A stretch of 31,270 nt of DNA from a virus, in the IMG/VR virus record IMGVR_UViG_3300042870_000257, positions 1 to 31,270 of that record. One strand, 5' to 3'. Below are positions 10,267 through 31,270 of this stretch, piece after piece; the stretch's first letter is position 1; each line of letters begins with the position of its first letter. The position numbers and the translations under genes are program-made. Below the pieces are notes generated by a model that saw only the letters and a program-made list of their open reading frames with translations, ran no database searches and was not told the origin of the DNA.

Positions 10267-10700
10267 ATAAACAAAACATAACAATTGCTTTTATTTGGAT
10301 AGCAGTTTTAGGACTTAGTTTAATGCTGTTTTATAGTTGTTCAGCAAGTTACCATTTTACTAAATTCCTGAAGAAAGGCGGAACTATTGACACAACCGAA
10401 CGAATTGTAAGCGTTGAGAAAGTAATTAAGATAAACGGCAAGGATTCAATTATAACCGTTTTAATGCCGTTAAATTGTCCCGAAGTACAAATACCTTTAA
10501 CACGTCAAGAAATACGCTACAAATACAGAATACAGCGTGATAGCATCGAAACAATTAGATACGTTACTAAGTGGAAAACTAAAGAAGTTGTTAAGTTGGC
10601 AAAAGTTCACAAGCGTAAACCGTTCAATTGGTTTTGGGTTGGTTTGGGAATAGGTTTAGTTTTACCAATTTTATTTAGACTTGTAATAAAAAAATTATGA
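10263..10700 (+). CDS. Candidate unimolecular spanin (lipoprotein-like N-terminus, C-terminal membrane span)
   Basis: The 145-residue product has a hydrophobic N-terminal helix ending LMLFYSC, with C26 as a possible lipidation site (lipobox-like, with F at -3 instead of L/V). A charged, beta-prone middle (about 30-115) follows, and residues 121-141 (WFWVGLGIGLVLPILF) form a second membrane span with a short basic tail. An outer-membrane lipid anchor plus an inner-membrane C-terminal span is the diagnostic topology of u-spanins, which fuse inner and outer membranes in the last step of Gram-negative lysis. Its position between holin and a candidate endolysin supports this. If C26 is not lipidated it would be a two-span membrane protein instead. 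Confidence 0.55.
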   Translation: MNKQNITIAFIWIAVLGLSLMLFYSCSASYHFTKFLKKGGTIDTTERIVSVEKVIKINGKDSIITVLMPLNCPEVQIPLTRQEIRYKYRIQRDSIETIRYVTKWKTKEVVKLAKVHKRKPFNWFWVGLGIGLVLPILFRLVIKKL

Positions 10701-14828: not shown

Positions 14829-14846
14829 CACAATCCAAATTAATTA

Positions 14847-14877
14847 ACCCCTGCATTTAGTTGTAGGGGTTTTTTTT
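14847..14877 (+). terminator. Rho-independent terminator
   Basis: ACCCCTGCA (14847-14855) pairs with TGTAGGGGT (14862-14870, one G-U pair) over TTTAGT, followed by eight T residues. Close relative of the terminator at 8468-8492. Confidence 0.92.
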
Positions 14878-15176
14878 ATGCGTATTTCCCGAGTTTTAGC
14901 AGTTAAAAACATAAAACTACCCTAAAACTTTTTAAAAGTAAGGAAGGTAAAAGCTATATACAGCAAAGGATACAGCAAAATTTCCCGACTTTTACCTACT
15001 TTTTTATAATTTCCTATTCAATACAGACTTAGGAATTAAAAAATAATAATTCTAAAAAAAAAGTAAGAAAGTGGGGAAATGTAGTTCAAACCCTTATAAA
15101 CAAAAGGAAAATGCTTCCCGACTTTTTAAAAGTTTTGGTAAAGTTTAAAGAAAGTTTTTTATTAAAGAATTATTTG
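14878..15176. other. Gene-free AT-rich region with iterons and palindromes: candidate replication origin
   Basis: No ORF on either strand is convincing here. The region holds TTCCCGA(C/G)TTTT three times (14886-14898, 14982-14994, 15115-15127), ATACAGCAAA twice at a 12-base period (14958-14967, 14970-14979), the palindrome ACTTTTTAAAAGT twice (14927-14939, 15121-15133), and the inverted repeat AGGTAAAAG/CTTTTACCT (14945-14953, 14989-14997). It lies directly before the replicative helicase gene. Repeats, palindromes and AT-richness beside a helicase gene fit an origin; binding sites for regulators are the alternative. Confidence 0.45.
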
Positions 15177-15184
15177 TATATTTG
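15177..15184 (+). promoter_or_regulatory. Bacteroidetes-type promoter P5 (-7 element)
   Basis: TATATTTG fits the consensus -7 element; no good TTTG -33 element is seen at the usual distance, so activation or a phage factor may be needed. It would transcribe the structured leader and the helicase gene. Confidence 0.5.
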
Positions 15185-15189
15185 TGGAC

Positions 15190-15298
15190 GTGAAAGTTAT
15201 CAATGCAGAAGGGTAGCTATTAGTCACTAAAAAAATTATTTAAAGCTCATTAACTTAGTAGCGCTGCATCGCAAAAGGTTAATGGGCTTTTATTTTTT
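15190..15298 (+). ncRNA. Structured leader RNA or small RNA ending in a terminator
   Basis: About 110 bases between promoter P5 and the helicase gene carry no ORF. They end in a 13-bp hairpin (15242-15254 with 15278-15290, one G-U pair) followed by a T-rich run to 15298, so most transcripts may stop before the helicase. The loop holds CTGCAT (15264-15269), exactly complementary to ATGCAG at 15203-15208, with extra complementarity around GCTA/TAGT, which would allow a pseudoknot or competing fold. It could be a riboswitch-like or attenuation leader, or a free small RNA. No known RNA family is recognised. Confidence 0.55.
15242..15298 (+). terminator. Terminator hairpin in the helicase leader
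   Basis: AAAGCTCATTAAC (15242-15254) and GTTAATGGGCTTT (15278-15290) form a long stem with one G-U pair; the 3' side runs into TTTTATTTTTT. It lies 16 bases before the helicase ATG, in the same direction, so it must be read through for helicase expression. Confidence 0.8.
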
Positions 15299-15313
15299 AA
15301 AACATTATGCAGA

Positions 15314-17800: not shown

Positions 17801-18003
17801 AAGCAAATAAAGTAGCAATTATTGACGTTTACGAAAATGGTATTTTTGTGCGTAAATTAGAATCTGTTTGGTCAAATTTGCCAAATTTAGAATTACATTG
17901 TACCTTTGAAATAACTACTCAAAAATTAGAATGCAAAACACAAATTGATAAACAACTTTTTGATTTTATAGAAAATGAAGTTATAGAATTTTTAACGATA
18001 TGA
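17797..18003 (+). CDS. Small protein of unknown function between nuclease and ParB-like gene
   Basis: A 68-residue product with alternating strands (KVAIIDVYENGIFVRKLE, LELHCTFEITTQKLEC) and an end helix. Coupled by ATGA to both neighbours. No recognised motif. Confidence 0.6.
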   Translation: MKANKVAIIDVYENGIFVRKLESVWSNLPNLELHCTFEITTQKLECKTQIDKQLFDFIENEVIEFLTI

Positions 18004-18578
18004 ATGCAATCAAAACAAAACTAAGCGAGGTTAAATTAAACCCAAACAACCCCAGGTTAATTAAAGACGACAATTTTAAGAAGTTAGTTCAATCAATAAA
18101 AGACTTTCCAGAAATGCTAGATATTCGACCTATTGTAGTTAACGCAGATATGGTAATCCTTGGCGGAAATATGCGATTTAAAGCGTGCAAAGAAGCAGGA
18201 TTAAAAGAAGTTCCGATTATAATTGCCGATAACCTTACGGAAGAACAACAACGAGAATTTCTGATTAAGGATAACGTAAGCGGTGGCGAATGGGATTGGA
18301 GTTTATTAAGCGAATGGGATTCGGAGCAGTTGGAAGAGTGGGGTTTGCAAATTTATGGCTTTGAAGATAATATGACTAATAATGAAGGTTATGAAGGTTT
18401 AGACCAATTAAGTAAATTAGATAAATTTTTAAGTGCTGAATTAAAAAGAATGTTTTTAGTTTATGATAACGAAACTTTTGAAAATGTTATTGAATGGTTT
18501 AATAAACAACAAGCAAAACACGAATTAGAAAACCATAGCCAAGTAATTTTAAAGTTAATGGAAAATGAAAACATTTGA
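18000..18578 (+). CDS. ParB/sulfiredoxin-fold protein
   Basis: The N-terminal 95 residues match the ParB-like nuclease/Srx fold: LSEVKLNPNNPRLI (8-21), DIRPIVVNADMVILGGNMRF (41-60) with GGNMRFKA in place of the usual GERRxRA box, then VPIIIADNLTEEQQREFLIK. Phage proteins of this kind usually carry or neighbour a DNA methyltransferase; here the rest (about 100-192) is a helical domain without methyltransferase motifs. ParB folds can bind CTP or act as nucleases, so the activity is uncertain. It overlaps the TET/JBP-like dioxygenase gene, suggesting joint action on DNA. Confidence 0.78.
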   Translation: MNAIKTKLSEVKLNPNNPRLIKDDNFKKLVQSIKDFPEMLDIRPIVVNADMVILGGNMRFKACKEAGLKEVPIIIADNLTEEQQREFLIKDNVSGGEWDWSLLSEWDSEQLEEWGLQIYGFEDNMTNNEGYEGLDQLSKLDKFLSAELKRMFLVYDNETFENVIEWFNKQQAKHELENHSQVILKLMENENI

Positions 18579-19395
18579 ATTAAATAAAATTAAGGGCTGC
18601 GAAGAACTAATAAAACAAACGCCAACAAAAAATGATTATAATTTAGTAATAAGTGAAGACACTTTATTTACTAAAAATGGCGTTAATGTAGGTTTATATA
18701 TTAAAATAGATAATAATCAATTACAAGGAATAAGGAACGCAAGTTTAAATACAAAATATGTAAAAACTTACAGGACAAGAAAAGCACTTCCAACACAATC
18801 AAGCGTATTTGGAAGTTTACCAAGAATACCTTTAAGAAATGATTATTGTAGGTTTTCAGCACAAACAAAAAACGAAAAAGAAAACGCAAATATATTATTT
18901 AGTTTTTTACCTTACTTAACTGAAATTTACAAAATCTATTTACCAACGCAACACGAACACGATTTAAAAGTAATACAAGAAAACGTTGATAGCGATTATT
19001 TAATTAAAGAAAAAACACCCTTTACAACCGCAAACATAAATGTAAACCACGCAATAAAATACCATAAAGACACGGGAAATTTTAGGGGTAATTTATCAAA
19101 CGTTTTAATTTTAAGAGACGGGATTGTAGGCGGTCAACTTGTTTTCCCTGAGTATGGTTTTGCACTCGCACAAGAAGACGGTTATTTAGCAATATTTGAT
19201 GGGCAAAGTGAAATTCACGGGGTAATGCCTATCATAAAAACAAAAGAAAACCCTTACCGTGCGTCTATAGTTTATTACACACTTGAAAATATGAAGCATT
19301 GTTACCCGTTTAAAATGGAAGTTGAAAGGTTACAAAATGTCGCTTCAGTAAGGGCAAATAACAGGGCAAACAATAAAGACCCAAGGACAAAATAA
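18565..19395 (+). CDS. TET/JBP-like 2-oxoglutarate/Fe(II) dioxygenase
   Basis: The 276-residue product has the layout of TET/JBP-family base dioxygenases: H167-K-D169 as the iron-binding HxD, GGQLVFPEYG (189-198) where this family has its conserved GG-L-P turn, H218-G-V as the distal iron ligand, and R232 in YRASIVYYT as the 2-oxoglutarate anchor. Members hydroxylate the methyl group of 5-methylcytosine or thymine in DNA. The N-terminal 100 residues lack a recognised domain. The gene overlaps the ParB-like gene by 14 bases. The dioxygenase fold is well supported by motif order; the base substrate is unknown because no methyltransferase is encoded. Confidence 0.72.
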   Translation: MKTFELNKIKGCEELIKQTPTKNDYNLVISEDTLFTKNGVNVGLYIKIDNNQLQGIRNASLNTKYVKTYRTRKALPTQSSVFGSLPRIPLRNDYCRFSAQTKNEKENANILFSFLPYLTEIYKIYLPTQHEHDLKVIQENVDSDYLIKEKTPFTTANINVNHAIKYHKDTGNFRGNLSNVLILRDGIVGGQLVFPEYGFALAQEDGYLAIFDGQSEIHGVMPIIKTKENPYRASIVYYTLENMKHCYPFKMEVERLQNVASVRANNRANNKDPRTK

Positions 19396-19416: not shown

Positions 19417-19731
19417 ATGGCTGATAAATTAGACAACTTAAAACCATTTGAACAAGGCGAAAGTGGAAACCCAAACGGAAGACCAAAAGGAAGTCGTAAC
19501 CGTTCAACTATTGCGCGTCAATGGTTGGAGGTTAATCAAAATTTAAAGAACCCTTTAACAGGCGTAAACGAAACAATGTCACAAGAAGATTTAATGACTT
19601 TGGCACTAATTAAAAAAGCAAGGGACGGCGATGTTTCAGCTTACAAAGCATTGATGGATTCAGGTTACGGAGCACCTTTACAGTCTATTGAAAATACAAT
19701 TATCGAGCAACCTTTATTTCCAGATGAATGA
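19417..19731 (+). CDS. Candidate small terminase subunit (DUF5681-type)
   Basis: The 104-residue product has the DUF5681 signature FEQGESGNPNGRPKGSRNRS (11-30), a basic Gly/Asn-rich arm that binds DNA, followed by helices (SQEDLMTLALIKKARDGDVS, then AYKALMDSGYGAP). Such proteins commonly sit upstream of large terminases and probably recognise the packaging site. Its stop overlaps the ATG of the sigma-like gene. Confidence 0.7.
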   Translation: MADKLDNLKPFEQGESGNPNGRPKGSRNRSTIARQWLEVNQNLKNPLTGVNETMSQEDLMTLALIKKARDGDVSAYKALMDSGYGAPLQSIENTIIEQPLFPDE

Positions 19732-20491: not shown

Positions 20492-20887
20492 ATGGCAAAA
20501 AGAAAACCAAAAGGATTAGGCGACACTATCGACCAAATCACAACAGCAACTGGAATTAAAGCACTTGTTAAATTTGTAGCAGGGGAAGACTGCGGTTGCG
20601 ACCGCCGAAAGGAAGCGTTAAACAAACTATTTCCTTATAATAAACCCAATTGTTTAAACGAAGCAGATTACAACTTTCTACACGAATTTTTTACAGTTGC
20701 AAGGGGTTCAATTGTTCCCTCCGTTCAATACCGATTAAACGAAATTCACACTAACGTTTTTAACAAGGTAACGAACTTTACTAATTGCACAAGTTGTTTA
20801 GCGGATAGGGTCAACGCACTAAAAAAAGTTTATGTTCAAACGAACGACAGCCGTCAACAAGATACGGCAATTGAAGAAACGAATTAA
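20492..20887 (+). CDS. Conserved Cys-containing protein before large terminase
   Basis: A 131-residue product. The N-terminal segment KGLGDTIDQITTATGIKALV is typical of proteins found before large terminases in Bacteroidetes phages. It has C34-G-C36, then a cysteine at about 54, and N-C-T-S-C near residue 100, suggesting a metal site. Its last 56 bases overlap the large terminase gene. Function unknown; a packaging accessory is plausible from context. Confidence 0.65.
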   Translation: MAKRKPKGLGDTIDQITTATGIKALVKFVAGEDCGCDRRKEALNKLFPYNKPNCLNEADYNFLHEFFTVARGSIVPSVQYRLNEIHTNVFNKVTNFTNCTSCLADRVNALKKVYVQTNDSRQQDTAIEETN

Positions 20888-21986
20888 AATAATTCAAGGC
20901 GGAACTTCGGCTTCAAAAACATTTTCTATTTTAGCGGTCCTAATTGATTACGCAGTTAAAAACCCGAACAGCGAAATAAGTATTATTGCTGAATCAATAC
21001 CACATTTAAGACGTGGAGCGTTAAAGGATTTTATTAAAATTCTAAAATGGACGAACCGATATAACGATGAATGTTTAAACAAATCGTTATTAACGTATAC
21101 AATGAAATGCGGTTCTGTTTTTGATTTCTTTTCGGCAGATGATTCTAGTAAATTAAGGGGTGCAAGGCGTGACATTTTATATATGAATGAGTGTAATAAT
21201 ATGACCTTTGACGCTTATAACGAACTTTCAATCCGTACAAAGAAACACGTTTATTTAGACTTCAATCCCGTCAATGAATTTTGGGTTCACTCCGAATTAA
21301 AAGACGACCCGAACGCAGATTTTATAATACTTACTTATTTAGATAATGAAGCGTTAGACGATTCTATTATTCAGCAAATAGAGAATAATAAAATCAAAGC
21401 GTTAACATCAAATTATTGGGCTAATTGGTGGAAAGTTTACGGCGAAGGACAAATCGGAATGCTTGAAGGCGTTGTATTTAGCAACTGGAAAACAATCGAT
21501 TCAATACCAACGGATGCTCGTTTATTAGGAATAGGATTAGACTTCGGATATACCAATGACCCAACTTCAGCAATAGCAGTTTATAAGTGGAATGACAAAC
21601 GTATTCTTAAAGAATTGTTTTACCAAACGGGAATGTTAAACGGTGATATTGCGAACCTATTACCAAAAGATACTTTGATTTATGCAGATAGCGCCGAGCC
21701 GAAAAGTATTGAAGAAATACGGCGCAGGGGGTTGCAAATATACCCAGCAACGAAAGGCAAAGATTCAATTAATTACGGAATTGATTTAATGCAACAGCAA
21801 GAATATTTAGTAACTTCGGAAAGCGTTAATTTAATTAAAGAACTTCGTGGGTATTGTTGGGACGTTGATAAGACTGGCAAACAGCTGAATAAACCGCAGG
21901 GGGGAAAAGACCACGCAATTGATGCGGTGCGTTACCACGAAATGGAATCCATAAGCACAAATAAAGGCGTGTATAACATTTATTGA
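20832..21986 (+). CDS. terL: Large terminase subunit
   Basis: The 384-residue motor has Walker A GGTSASKT (23-30) and Walker B ILYMNE (115-120), with Asn instead of Asp before the catalytic Glu. The nuclease half has the RNase H-like acids D237 (LDFGYT), D286 (YADSAEP) and D360/D364 (KDHAIDAVRY). Together these translocate DNA into the prohead and cut the concatemer. A short length is usual for Bacteroidetes phage terminases. The start at 20832 overlaps the previous gene by 56 bases; RIKIIQGGTSASKT lies close to the N-terminus, so no later ATG would retain the motif. Confidence 0.93.
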   Translation: MFKRTTAVNKIRQLKKRIKIIQGGTSASKTFSILAVLIDYAVKNPNSEISIIAESIPHLRRGALKDFIKILKWTNRYNDECLNKSLLTYTMKCGSVFDFFSADDSSKLRGARRDILYMNECNNMTFDAYNELSIRTKKHVYLDFNPVNEFWVHSELKDDPNADFIILTYLDNEALDDSIIQQIENNKIKALTSNYWANWWKVYGEGQIGMLEGVVFSNWKTIDSIPTDARLLGIGLDFGYTNDPTSAIAVYKWNDKRILKELFYQTGMLNGDIANLLPKDTLIYADSAEPKSIEEIRRRGLQIYPATKGKDSINYGIDLMQQQEYLVTSESVNLIKELRGYCWDVDKTGKQLNKPQGGKDHAIDAVRYHEMESISTNKGVYNIY

Positions 21987-30963: not shown

Positions 30964-31270
30964 ATGAGTACAACGTATTTAAATGTTTCTAACGATGTTG
31001 AAAGACAGTTAGCAAACGTAGAAGCTGTAACAGGCGCAACAACATTGACCGCTGAAGATAGTGGCAAAGTATTAATTTTAAAAGCAGCGGCAGGAGCTGA
31101 AATCACTTTGCCAGCGGTGGCAACATCTGCAGGATTGAGATTTAAGTTTGTAGTTGGTTTAGCTTTCGCAACAACTAACTGGACTGTAAAAGCGGCGACA
31201 AATGTAATTGAGGGTTCTGTTTTAGTAAACGGCGCACACGTTGCAGGAGTTAACGAAAACACAATTTCTT
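30964..31270 (+). CDS. Capsid decoration-like protein, 5' part (gene continues at position 1)
   Basis: The ATG at 30964 follows the scaffold-like gene by four bases. The first 25 residues (TTYLNVSNDVERQLANVEAV) are not present in the 5' fragment of the window and join in frame to the sequence from position 1, giving 140 residues. From 31040 on the sequence duplicates 1-231. See the entry at 1-347 for function. Confidence 0.65.
   Translation, partial: MSTTYLNVSNDVERQLANVEAVTGATTLTAEDSGKVLILKAAAGAEITLPAVATSAGLRFKFVVGLAFATTNWTVKAATNVIEGSVLVNGAHVAGVNENTIS
31040..31270. repeat. Terminal redundancy, right copy
   Basis: Right copy of the 231-base repeat. Removing one copy closes the genome at 31,039 bp and restores one continuous decoration gene. 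Confidence 0.9.

Follow-up and report, generated by a model that had tools for sequence, protein, structure and literature searches.

Experimental evidence for TET-like enzymes that oxidise thymine directly in DNA comes mainly from trypanosome JBP proteins. Among cultured phages, relatives of the TET gene analysed here were found in 96 records, and the arrangement of a ParB-like gene and a TET gene with no methyltransferase is present in phages of Mycobacterium, Gordonia, Microbacterium, Rhodococcus and Arthrobacter; ParB-TET pairs were also found in cyanophages. In the Mycobacterium phages Nigel and Prince the two genes overlap by 14 nt, and the pair is followed by a PF18751 kinase and then the terminase in Nigel, and by a PF18724 amino-acid:DNA transferase, a gene annotated as adenylate kinase and then the terminase in Prince. 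Similar loci are carried by Gordonia phage CaiB, Microbacterium phages Margaery and Kozie, Rhodococcus phage Tonitrus and Arthrobacter phages. Cassettes of this type were reportedly, and probably, described earlier by Iyer et al. 2013 and Lee et al. 2021. The genome papers of CaiB and Tonitrus already name ParB-TET a base-hypermodification cassette (PMC9302106, PMC11955845). A sequence-only reading of the DNA studied here had proposed that a two-gene modification system with no methyltransferase would be new, and these cultured actinophages and cyanophages leave that claim only partly right.

The window, by which we mean the whole stretch of viral DNA that was analysed, is 31,270 nt long (IMG/VR record IMGVR_UViG_3300042870_000257). 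Bases 1–231 and 31040–31270 form a direct terminal repeat (231 bp, two mismatches), so the record was read as a whole genome, very probably complete and circularly permuted with a length of about 31.04 kb. No near-identical cultured phage was found by megablast. Both ORFs of the pair were confirmed, the one at 18000–18578 encoding a ParB-fold protein of 192 aa upstream of the one at 18565–19395. The locus and its downstream boundary contain the following features.

18000–18352, plus strand: ParB-CTPase-fold N-terminal domain, residues 1–117 (Pfam PF02195), common to the ParBs of other modification enzymes
18353–18578, plus strand: C-terminal tail of the ParB-like protein, TET-type, residues 118–192 (from tail HMMs, nearest neighbours and model)
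18565–18578, plus strand: 14-nt stretch shared by the end of the ParB gene and the start of the TET gene, exact in 43/56 viral-contig loci and in Nigel and Prince
18565–19395, plus strand: TET/JBP-family 2-oxoglutarate/Fe(II) oxygenase, 276 aa (from Pfam PF12851, ligands and model)
19063, 19069 and 19216, within the oxygenase gene: iron ligands H167, D169 and H218
19258, within the oxygenase gene: 2-oxoglutarate anchor R232
19417–19731, plus strand: DUF5681 protein (Pfam PF18932), probable terminase small subunit and downstream boundary of the cassette
20832–21986, plus strand: terminase large subunit, TerL (Pfam PF17288/PF04466)

The Pfam profile Tet_JBP (PF12851) matched residues 95–239 of the downstream protein with 64.1 bits against a cut-off of 34.9 (E 1.2e-17). 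The motif residues H167, D169, G189-G190, P195, H218-G219 and R232 were found at these positions and are invariant in 38 relatives that are 43–87% identical. The AlphaFold2 model has a mean pLDDT of 88.1, and its best PDB matches are NgTET1 (Z 18.8, 218 residues aligned, rmsd 3.1) and human TET2 (Z 18.4). A profile of the family searched against the PDB recovered TET2 by sequence (E 2e-4), with the HxD, H and R catalytic motifs aligned. Therefore, profile, ligands and fold together identify the product of 18565–19395 as a TET/JBP-family enzyme with an intact predicted active site, in agreement with the sequence-only reading, and the HMM search and structure prediction it had asked for place the protein with TET/JBP above AlkB and FTO with the iron ligands kept. 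2-oxoglutarate oxygenases are known to have many substrates, and this enzyme could in principle act on protein or RNA instead of DNA; this is highly improbable, as the model matches TET/JBP structures with Z 16–19 but FTO, AlkB and AlkBH3 with Z of 14 or less, and enzymes that decorate modified DNA bases are found near the relatives' genes. Separately, TET-like genes of mycobacteriophages (L062:776–1744, phrog_6059) are called 'queuine tRNA-ribosyltransferase' in RefSeq and PHROGs. The L062 gene matches the TET family of the window and scores 26.5 bits with Tet_JBP, below the cut-off, and the label is probably a propagated misannotation.

The Pfam scan of the 49 ORFs of the window recognised packaging, head, holin, ERF recombinase, DUF3127, PAPS reductase, ParB_N and Tet_JBP domains and no DNA-methyltransferase domain, and whole-genome searches with PF00145 and PF01555 gave no match, so, within the reach of profile searches, the earlier statement that the genome has no methyltransferase stands. 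Kinase, glycosyltransferase, amino-acid transferase and thymidylate synthase were likewise absent among the Pfam-recognisable domains of these ORFs, and the PF18751 kinase was not found in the genome. PADLOC reported a single 'MTase_II' match, and this falls on the ParB domain, a domain also known from fusions with methyltransferases of that type. Two other regions of the genome were noted. A PAPS-reductase-family gene at 10697–11527 matches SspD in PADLOC (E 8e-16) and DndC weakly; this gene is not enriched in TET contigs (2/20 vs 3/24) and was left out of the model. A non-coding stretch at 14829–15313, before a primase-like gene, has a terminator-like hairpin at 14846 and three exact copies of TTCCCGASTTTT (at 14886, 14982 and 15115), which are all the copies in the genome; this count was matched in 2/100 shuffles, and the copies are possible origin or binding sites.

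To which base the enzyme is directed was addressed through the gene content of its relatives. The PF00145 C5-cytosine methyltransferase is present in 0/13 cultured TET phages, and 12 of them lack a homologue of thymidylate synthase. Thymine-hypermodification enzymes, namely the PF18724 'amino acid:DNA transferase' and/or the PF18751 kinase, are encoded by Tonitrus, Prince, Kozie, Nigel and Margaery; the assignment to thymine rests on the cited papers and the Pfam names. Because the cultured TET phages are without C5 methyltransferases, mostly without thymidylate synthase and in several cases equipped with thymine-hypermodification kinases or transferases, thymine appears the likelier substrate than 5-methylcytosine, and the simplest source of a hydroxymethyl group in these phages would be TET acting on thymine in DNA. 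The sequence-only reading had left the choice between thymine and host-methylated cytosine; its thymine option is thus plausible. The main rival for the substrate is 5-methylcytosine made by host methyltransferases, or by phage ones in relatives, as for eukaryotic TETs. NgTET1 and TET2 belong to the same fold family, PF00145 was found in two of the 24 viral contigs searched (and in these only among 25 records, with Nigel included), and a C5-cytosine methyltransferase was recognised in L013 by inspection. Burke et al. 2021 are also said to have found phage TETs that act on 5-methylcytosine together with a phage GpC methyltransferase. Nevertheless, we regard this substrate as unlikely here, given the lack of C5 methyltransferases in the 13 cultured TET phages, the thymine type of the linked decorating enzymes, and the dependence on particular host strains that reliance on host methylation would impose.

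Genes next to TET in other phages hint at further decoration of the oxidised base. A gene for an FkbM-type methyltransferase adjoins TET, before or after it, in unrelated phages (L056, L057, L059, L060, L122, L123, L125 and Prochlorococcus phage MED4-184, L075), and this enzyme might O-methylate the hydroxymethyl base. At L097:947–2247 a glycosyltransferase gene and then a sulfotransferase gene (PF03567) lie between ParB and TET, an order that suggests a sulfated sugar on the oxidised base.

The overlap of the TET gene with a ParB-like gene by 14 bases, which the sequence-only reading had described, was confirmed by the ORF coordinates, and the pair proved to be conserved. Among 60 TET relatives in viral contigs, 56 have an upstream ORF, and in 56/56 of these loci a ParB gene directly precedes TET; the overlap is exactly 14 nt in 43/56, and genes farther out, terminase families included, vary. 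Where dS is unsaturated, dN/dS is about 0.06–0.12 for both genes, indicating strong purifying selection. The pair is therefore not a chance association, and in the sampled relatives with an upstream ORF it is obligate. The overlap suggests that translation of ParB and TET may be coupled. Some phages (Cr30, P12024L) have TET without an adjacent ParB. In Nonlabens phage P12024L, gene 25 (L077:7208–7423, 71 aa) overlaps the downstream TET gene by 14 nt and starts with DWGI, as at the boundary of the ParB tail; its position as a detached ParB tail is suggestive, but the HMM match is not significant (E 0.6). No prophage or host relative turned up when 84,980 bacterial and archaeal species genomes were scanned twice; the degenerate patterns used were narrow, which makes this weak evidence.

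The ParB-like protein matches ParB_N (PF02195) with 35.4 bits against a cut-off of 26.3, and the best PDB match of its N-terminal domain is M. xanthus ParB with bound CTPgammaS (Z 14.3, rmsd 1.4 Å, 33% identity). Its nucleotide motifs are altered: QPR is replaced by NPR, GERR by GNMR, and ENxxR by DN without the following R. CTP binding is uncertain because two of the three conserved nucleotide boxes, GERR and ENxxR, are changed. PDB matches of the model span only residues 1–120 of the 192; after residue 118 the model shows a linker and about three predicted helices with no HTH assigned, and its confidence is low at 121–160.

The domain is not confined to TET loci. A search of viral contigs with the ParB alignment, made without reference to TET, yielded 80 ParB-N loci. 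ParB is fused to an N6/N4 methyltransferase in 26 of them and has a separate DNA-modification enzyme just downstream in 47. These 47 comprise Mom (13), TET directly (6), TAGT glycosyltransferase with or without TET (12), FkbM methyltransferase plus TET (3), ADDT-like and/or kinase plus TET (3), other glycosyltransferase-like plus TET (2), ABC-GNAT (4), alpha-glucosyltransferase-like (2), D12 methyltransferase (1) and DpdA-like (1), with families assigned by Pfam and PHROGs for representatives and by BLAST clustering for the rest; the labels 'GT' for cluster c42, 'ADDT' for cluster c62 and 'QueD-like' are our own reading, made with no Pfam match. L111 adds a pair of QueD-like and DpdA-like genes next to ParB. 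Members of the modifier clusters were counted 64 times at a distance of no more than three genes from ParB and 0 times among 546 other ORFs. TerL is 2–5 genes downstream of ParB in 68/77 loci, most exceptions being loci that end before TerL, and DUF5681 relatives sit between modifier and TerL at other loci. The order parB, modifier, terminase is thus conserved, and the survey of other phage genomes that had been proposed earlier found both the ParB-TET pair conserved and the terminase nearby. Same-family ParBs also lie beside DpdA-like genes (queuine tRNA-ribosyltransferase, phrog_887) at L111:3001–4759, with the QueD-like gene, and at L131:3001–4271, and ParB relatives in L162 and L164 are neighbours of a C5-type enzyme bearing SPPC, a motif that has been reported for CmoX.

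The ParB of the window is thus not TET-specific, since close relatives adjoin or are fused to other DNA-modification enzymes. Its N-terminal domain reaches 86% identity with a Mom-linked ParB; the tails of these two proteins are only 8% identical. The sequence-only reading had suggested that the ParB-like protein guides or follows the reaction. It could instead be an effector, either a nuclease or an NTPase, directed against host or rival DNA that lacks the modification, with modification as self-protection. Phage annotators label the family 'ParB-like nuclease', and nuclease-active ParB/Srx proteins have been discussed (PMC10853773); yet the fold matches are to the CTP-binding domain of ParB and Noc, fusion to methyltransferases fits recruitment better than a toxin, and the tail varies with the enzyme, making an effector role quite unlikely.

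To compare the two parts of the protein, 76 non-redundant stand-alone ParBs were split after the conserved W[GA]x motif. The nearest neighbour of the N-terminal domain has the same partner enzyme in 38/76, within the range of shuffles (mean 24.7, maximum 43), so this domain does not predict the partner, whereas the nearest neighbour of the tail has the same partner in 65/76 (shuffle maximum 40). Between same-partner and other pairs, identity is 58% vs 63% for the N-terminal domain and 43% vs 19% for the tail. HMMs of the N-terminal domain score about 170–230 bits on all groups without discrimination; tail HMMs score about 110–134 bits on their own group, self-scores that are circular, and near 0 on most others. 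Comparisons across phyla are not circular in this way. The tail of cyanophage MED4-184 (ParB-FkbM-TET) matches TET-linked tails with E about 1e-13 to 1e-15 and that of Lactobacillus phage phi jlb1 (ParB-TAGT) matches the L141 tail with E 4e-32, E-values that are optimistic with composition correction off and about 70% of the compared tails TET-linked; the MED4-184 FkbM enzyme is 57% identical to a viral-contig FkbM, and the glycosyltransferases of phi jlb1 and L141 are 46% identical. TET-linked tails of actinophages always have a TET-linked tail as best match, in some cases weakly. Leptospira phage LE4 is a counter-example to the tail rule, with no significant tail similarity despite a 49%-identical ABC-GNAT enzyme. 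The tail alone found no match in cultured phages by tblastn and is detected only by profile or by tail-to-tail comparison.

Linked recombination is the main rival for this rule. The cassette lies nearly always between parB-N and terminase, and tail and enzyme are adjacent or overlapping, so exchange within the parB N-terminal domain and the terminase could swap everything between them, and tails with no docking function would be co-inherited with their enzymes. Tails are alike, however, across lineages with little else in common (MED4-184, phi jlb1 and the TET-linked actinophages), and although linked transfer would still give part of this likeness, we consider it rather doubtful that hitchhiking explains the whole correlation. 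A literature search found no paper stating the tail rule, and the association with ParB may already be mentioned in Iyer et al. 2013 or Lee et al. 2021. The apparently new element is the ParB, with its shared N-terminal domain and partner-tracking tail, and not the ParB-TET pair.

The reading that we favour, and hold to be rather probable, is a module in which TET adds a hydroxyl group to the C5 methyl of a phage-DNA pyrimidine and the ParB-like protein serves as an adaptor with an enzyme-fitting tail. With Fe(II) and 2-oxoglutarate, the enzyme would most likely convert thymine to 5-hydroxymethyluracil, presumably after replication and before packaging. The CTPase-fold domain would act as a common element recruiting a modification enzyme to phage DNA, possibly by working as an NTP-dependent clamp; the tail would fit the enzyme class, here TET. 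Since the genome encodes no recognisable kinase, transferase or glycosyltransferase, modification probably stops at the undecorated oxidised base, and this base would protect the DNA against some host nucleases. A compact phage TET with neither methyltransferase nor decorating enzymes would be a clean test case for thymine oxidation. More broadly and more tentatively, at somewhat short of even chances, phages of several phyla may share a plug-in ParB-fold adaptor, in which a near-constant domain is combined with a tail that is swapped along with its enzyme (TET, Mom, ABC-GNAT, glycosyltransferase, DpdA or methyltransferase), nearly always by the terminase; one delivery mechanism would then serve unrelated chemistries on different bases, with the window as a minimal thymine-oxidising version. 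If the tail selects the enzyme, the frequent occurrence of ParB-like genes next to base-modification genes of phages would have an explanation, new modification enzymes could be sought just after parB-N and before the terminase, and a common pathway would be suggested for the self-marking of phage DNA ahead of packaging.

Compared with known systems, the TET protein of the window resembles NgTET1 and TET2 in its HxD...H...R active site and, for most of its length, in fold, but it is a small single-domain phage protein, 13–17% identical to them, paired with ParB and with thymine, in JBP-like chemistry, as probable substrate. The ParB-like protein has the N-terminal CTPase-fold domain of canonical ParB partition proteins; the canonical proteins have intact QPR, GERRxRA and ENxxR motifs, and are further characterised by a central HTH for parS and a C-terminal dimerisation domain. 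The actinophage cassettes (CaiB, Tonitrus, Nigel/Prince and Margaery) resemble the window in having ParB upstream of TET just before the terminase and no C5-cytosine methyltransferase, and Nigel and Prince also in the length of the overlap. Unlike these cassettes with their ADDT and kinase genes, the phage studied here has no kinase, amino-acid transferase or glycosyltransferase, and its ParB N-terminal domain has near relatives at Mom and methyltransferase loci, whereas actinophage N-terminal domains are far more diverged. The phage fusions of a ParB-CTPase-fold domain to N6/N4 methyltransferases (PMC12704722) have the same N-terminal domain, 70–89% identical in the closest cases, while the ParB of the window is a separate protein with its own tail, beside the enzyme. 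The CmoX loci for cytosine carboxymethylation (PMC12783734) likewise place a ParBc protein beside a phage base-modification enzyme, with a different chemistry and a different enzyme.
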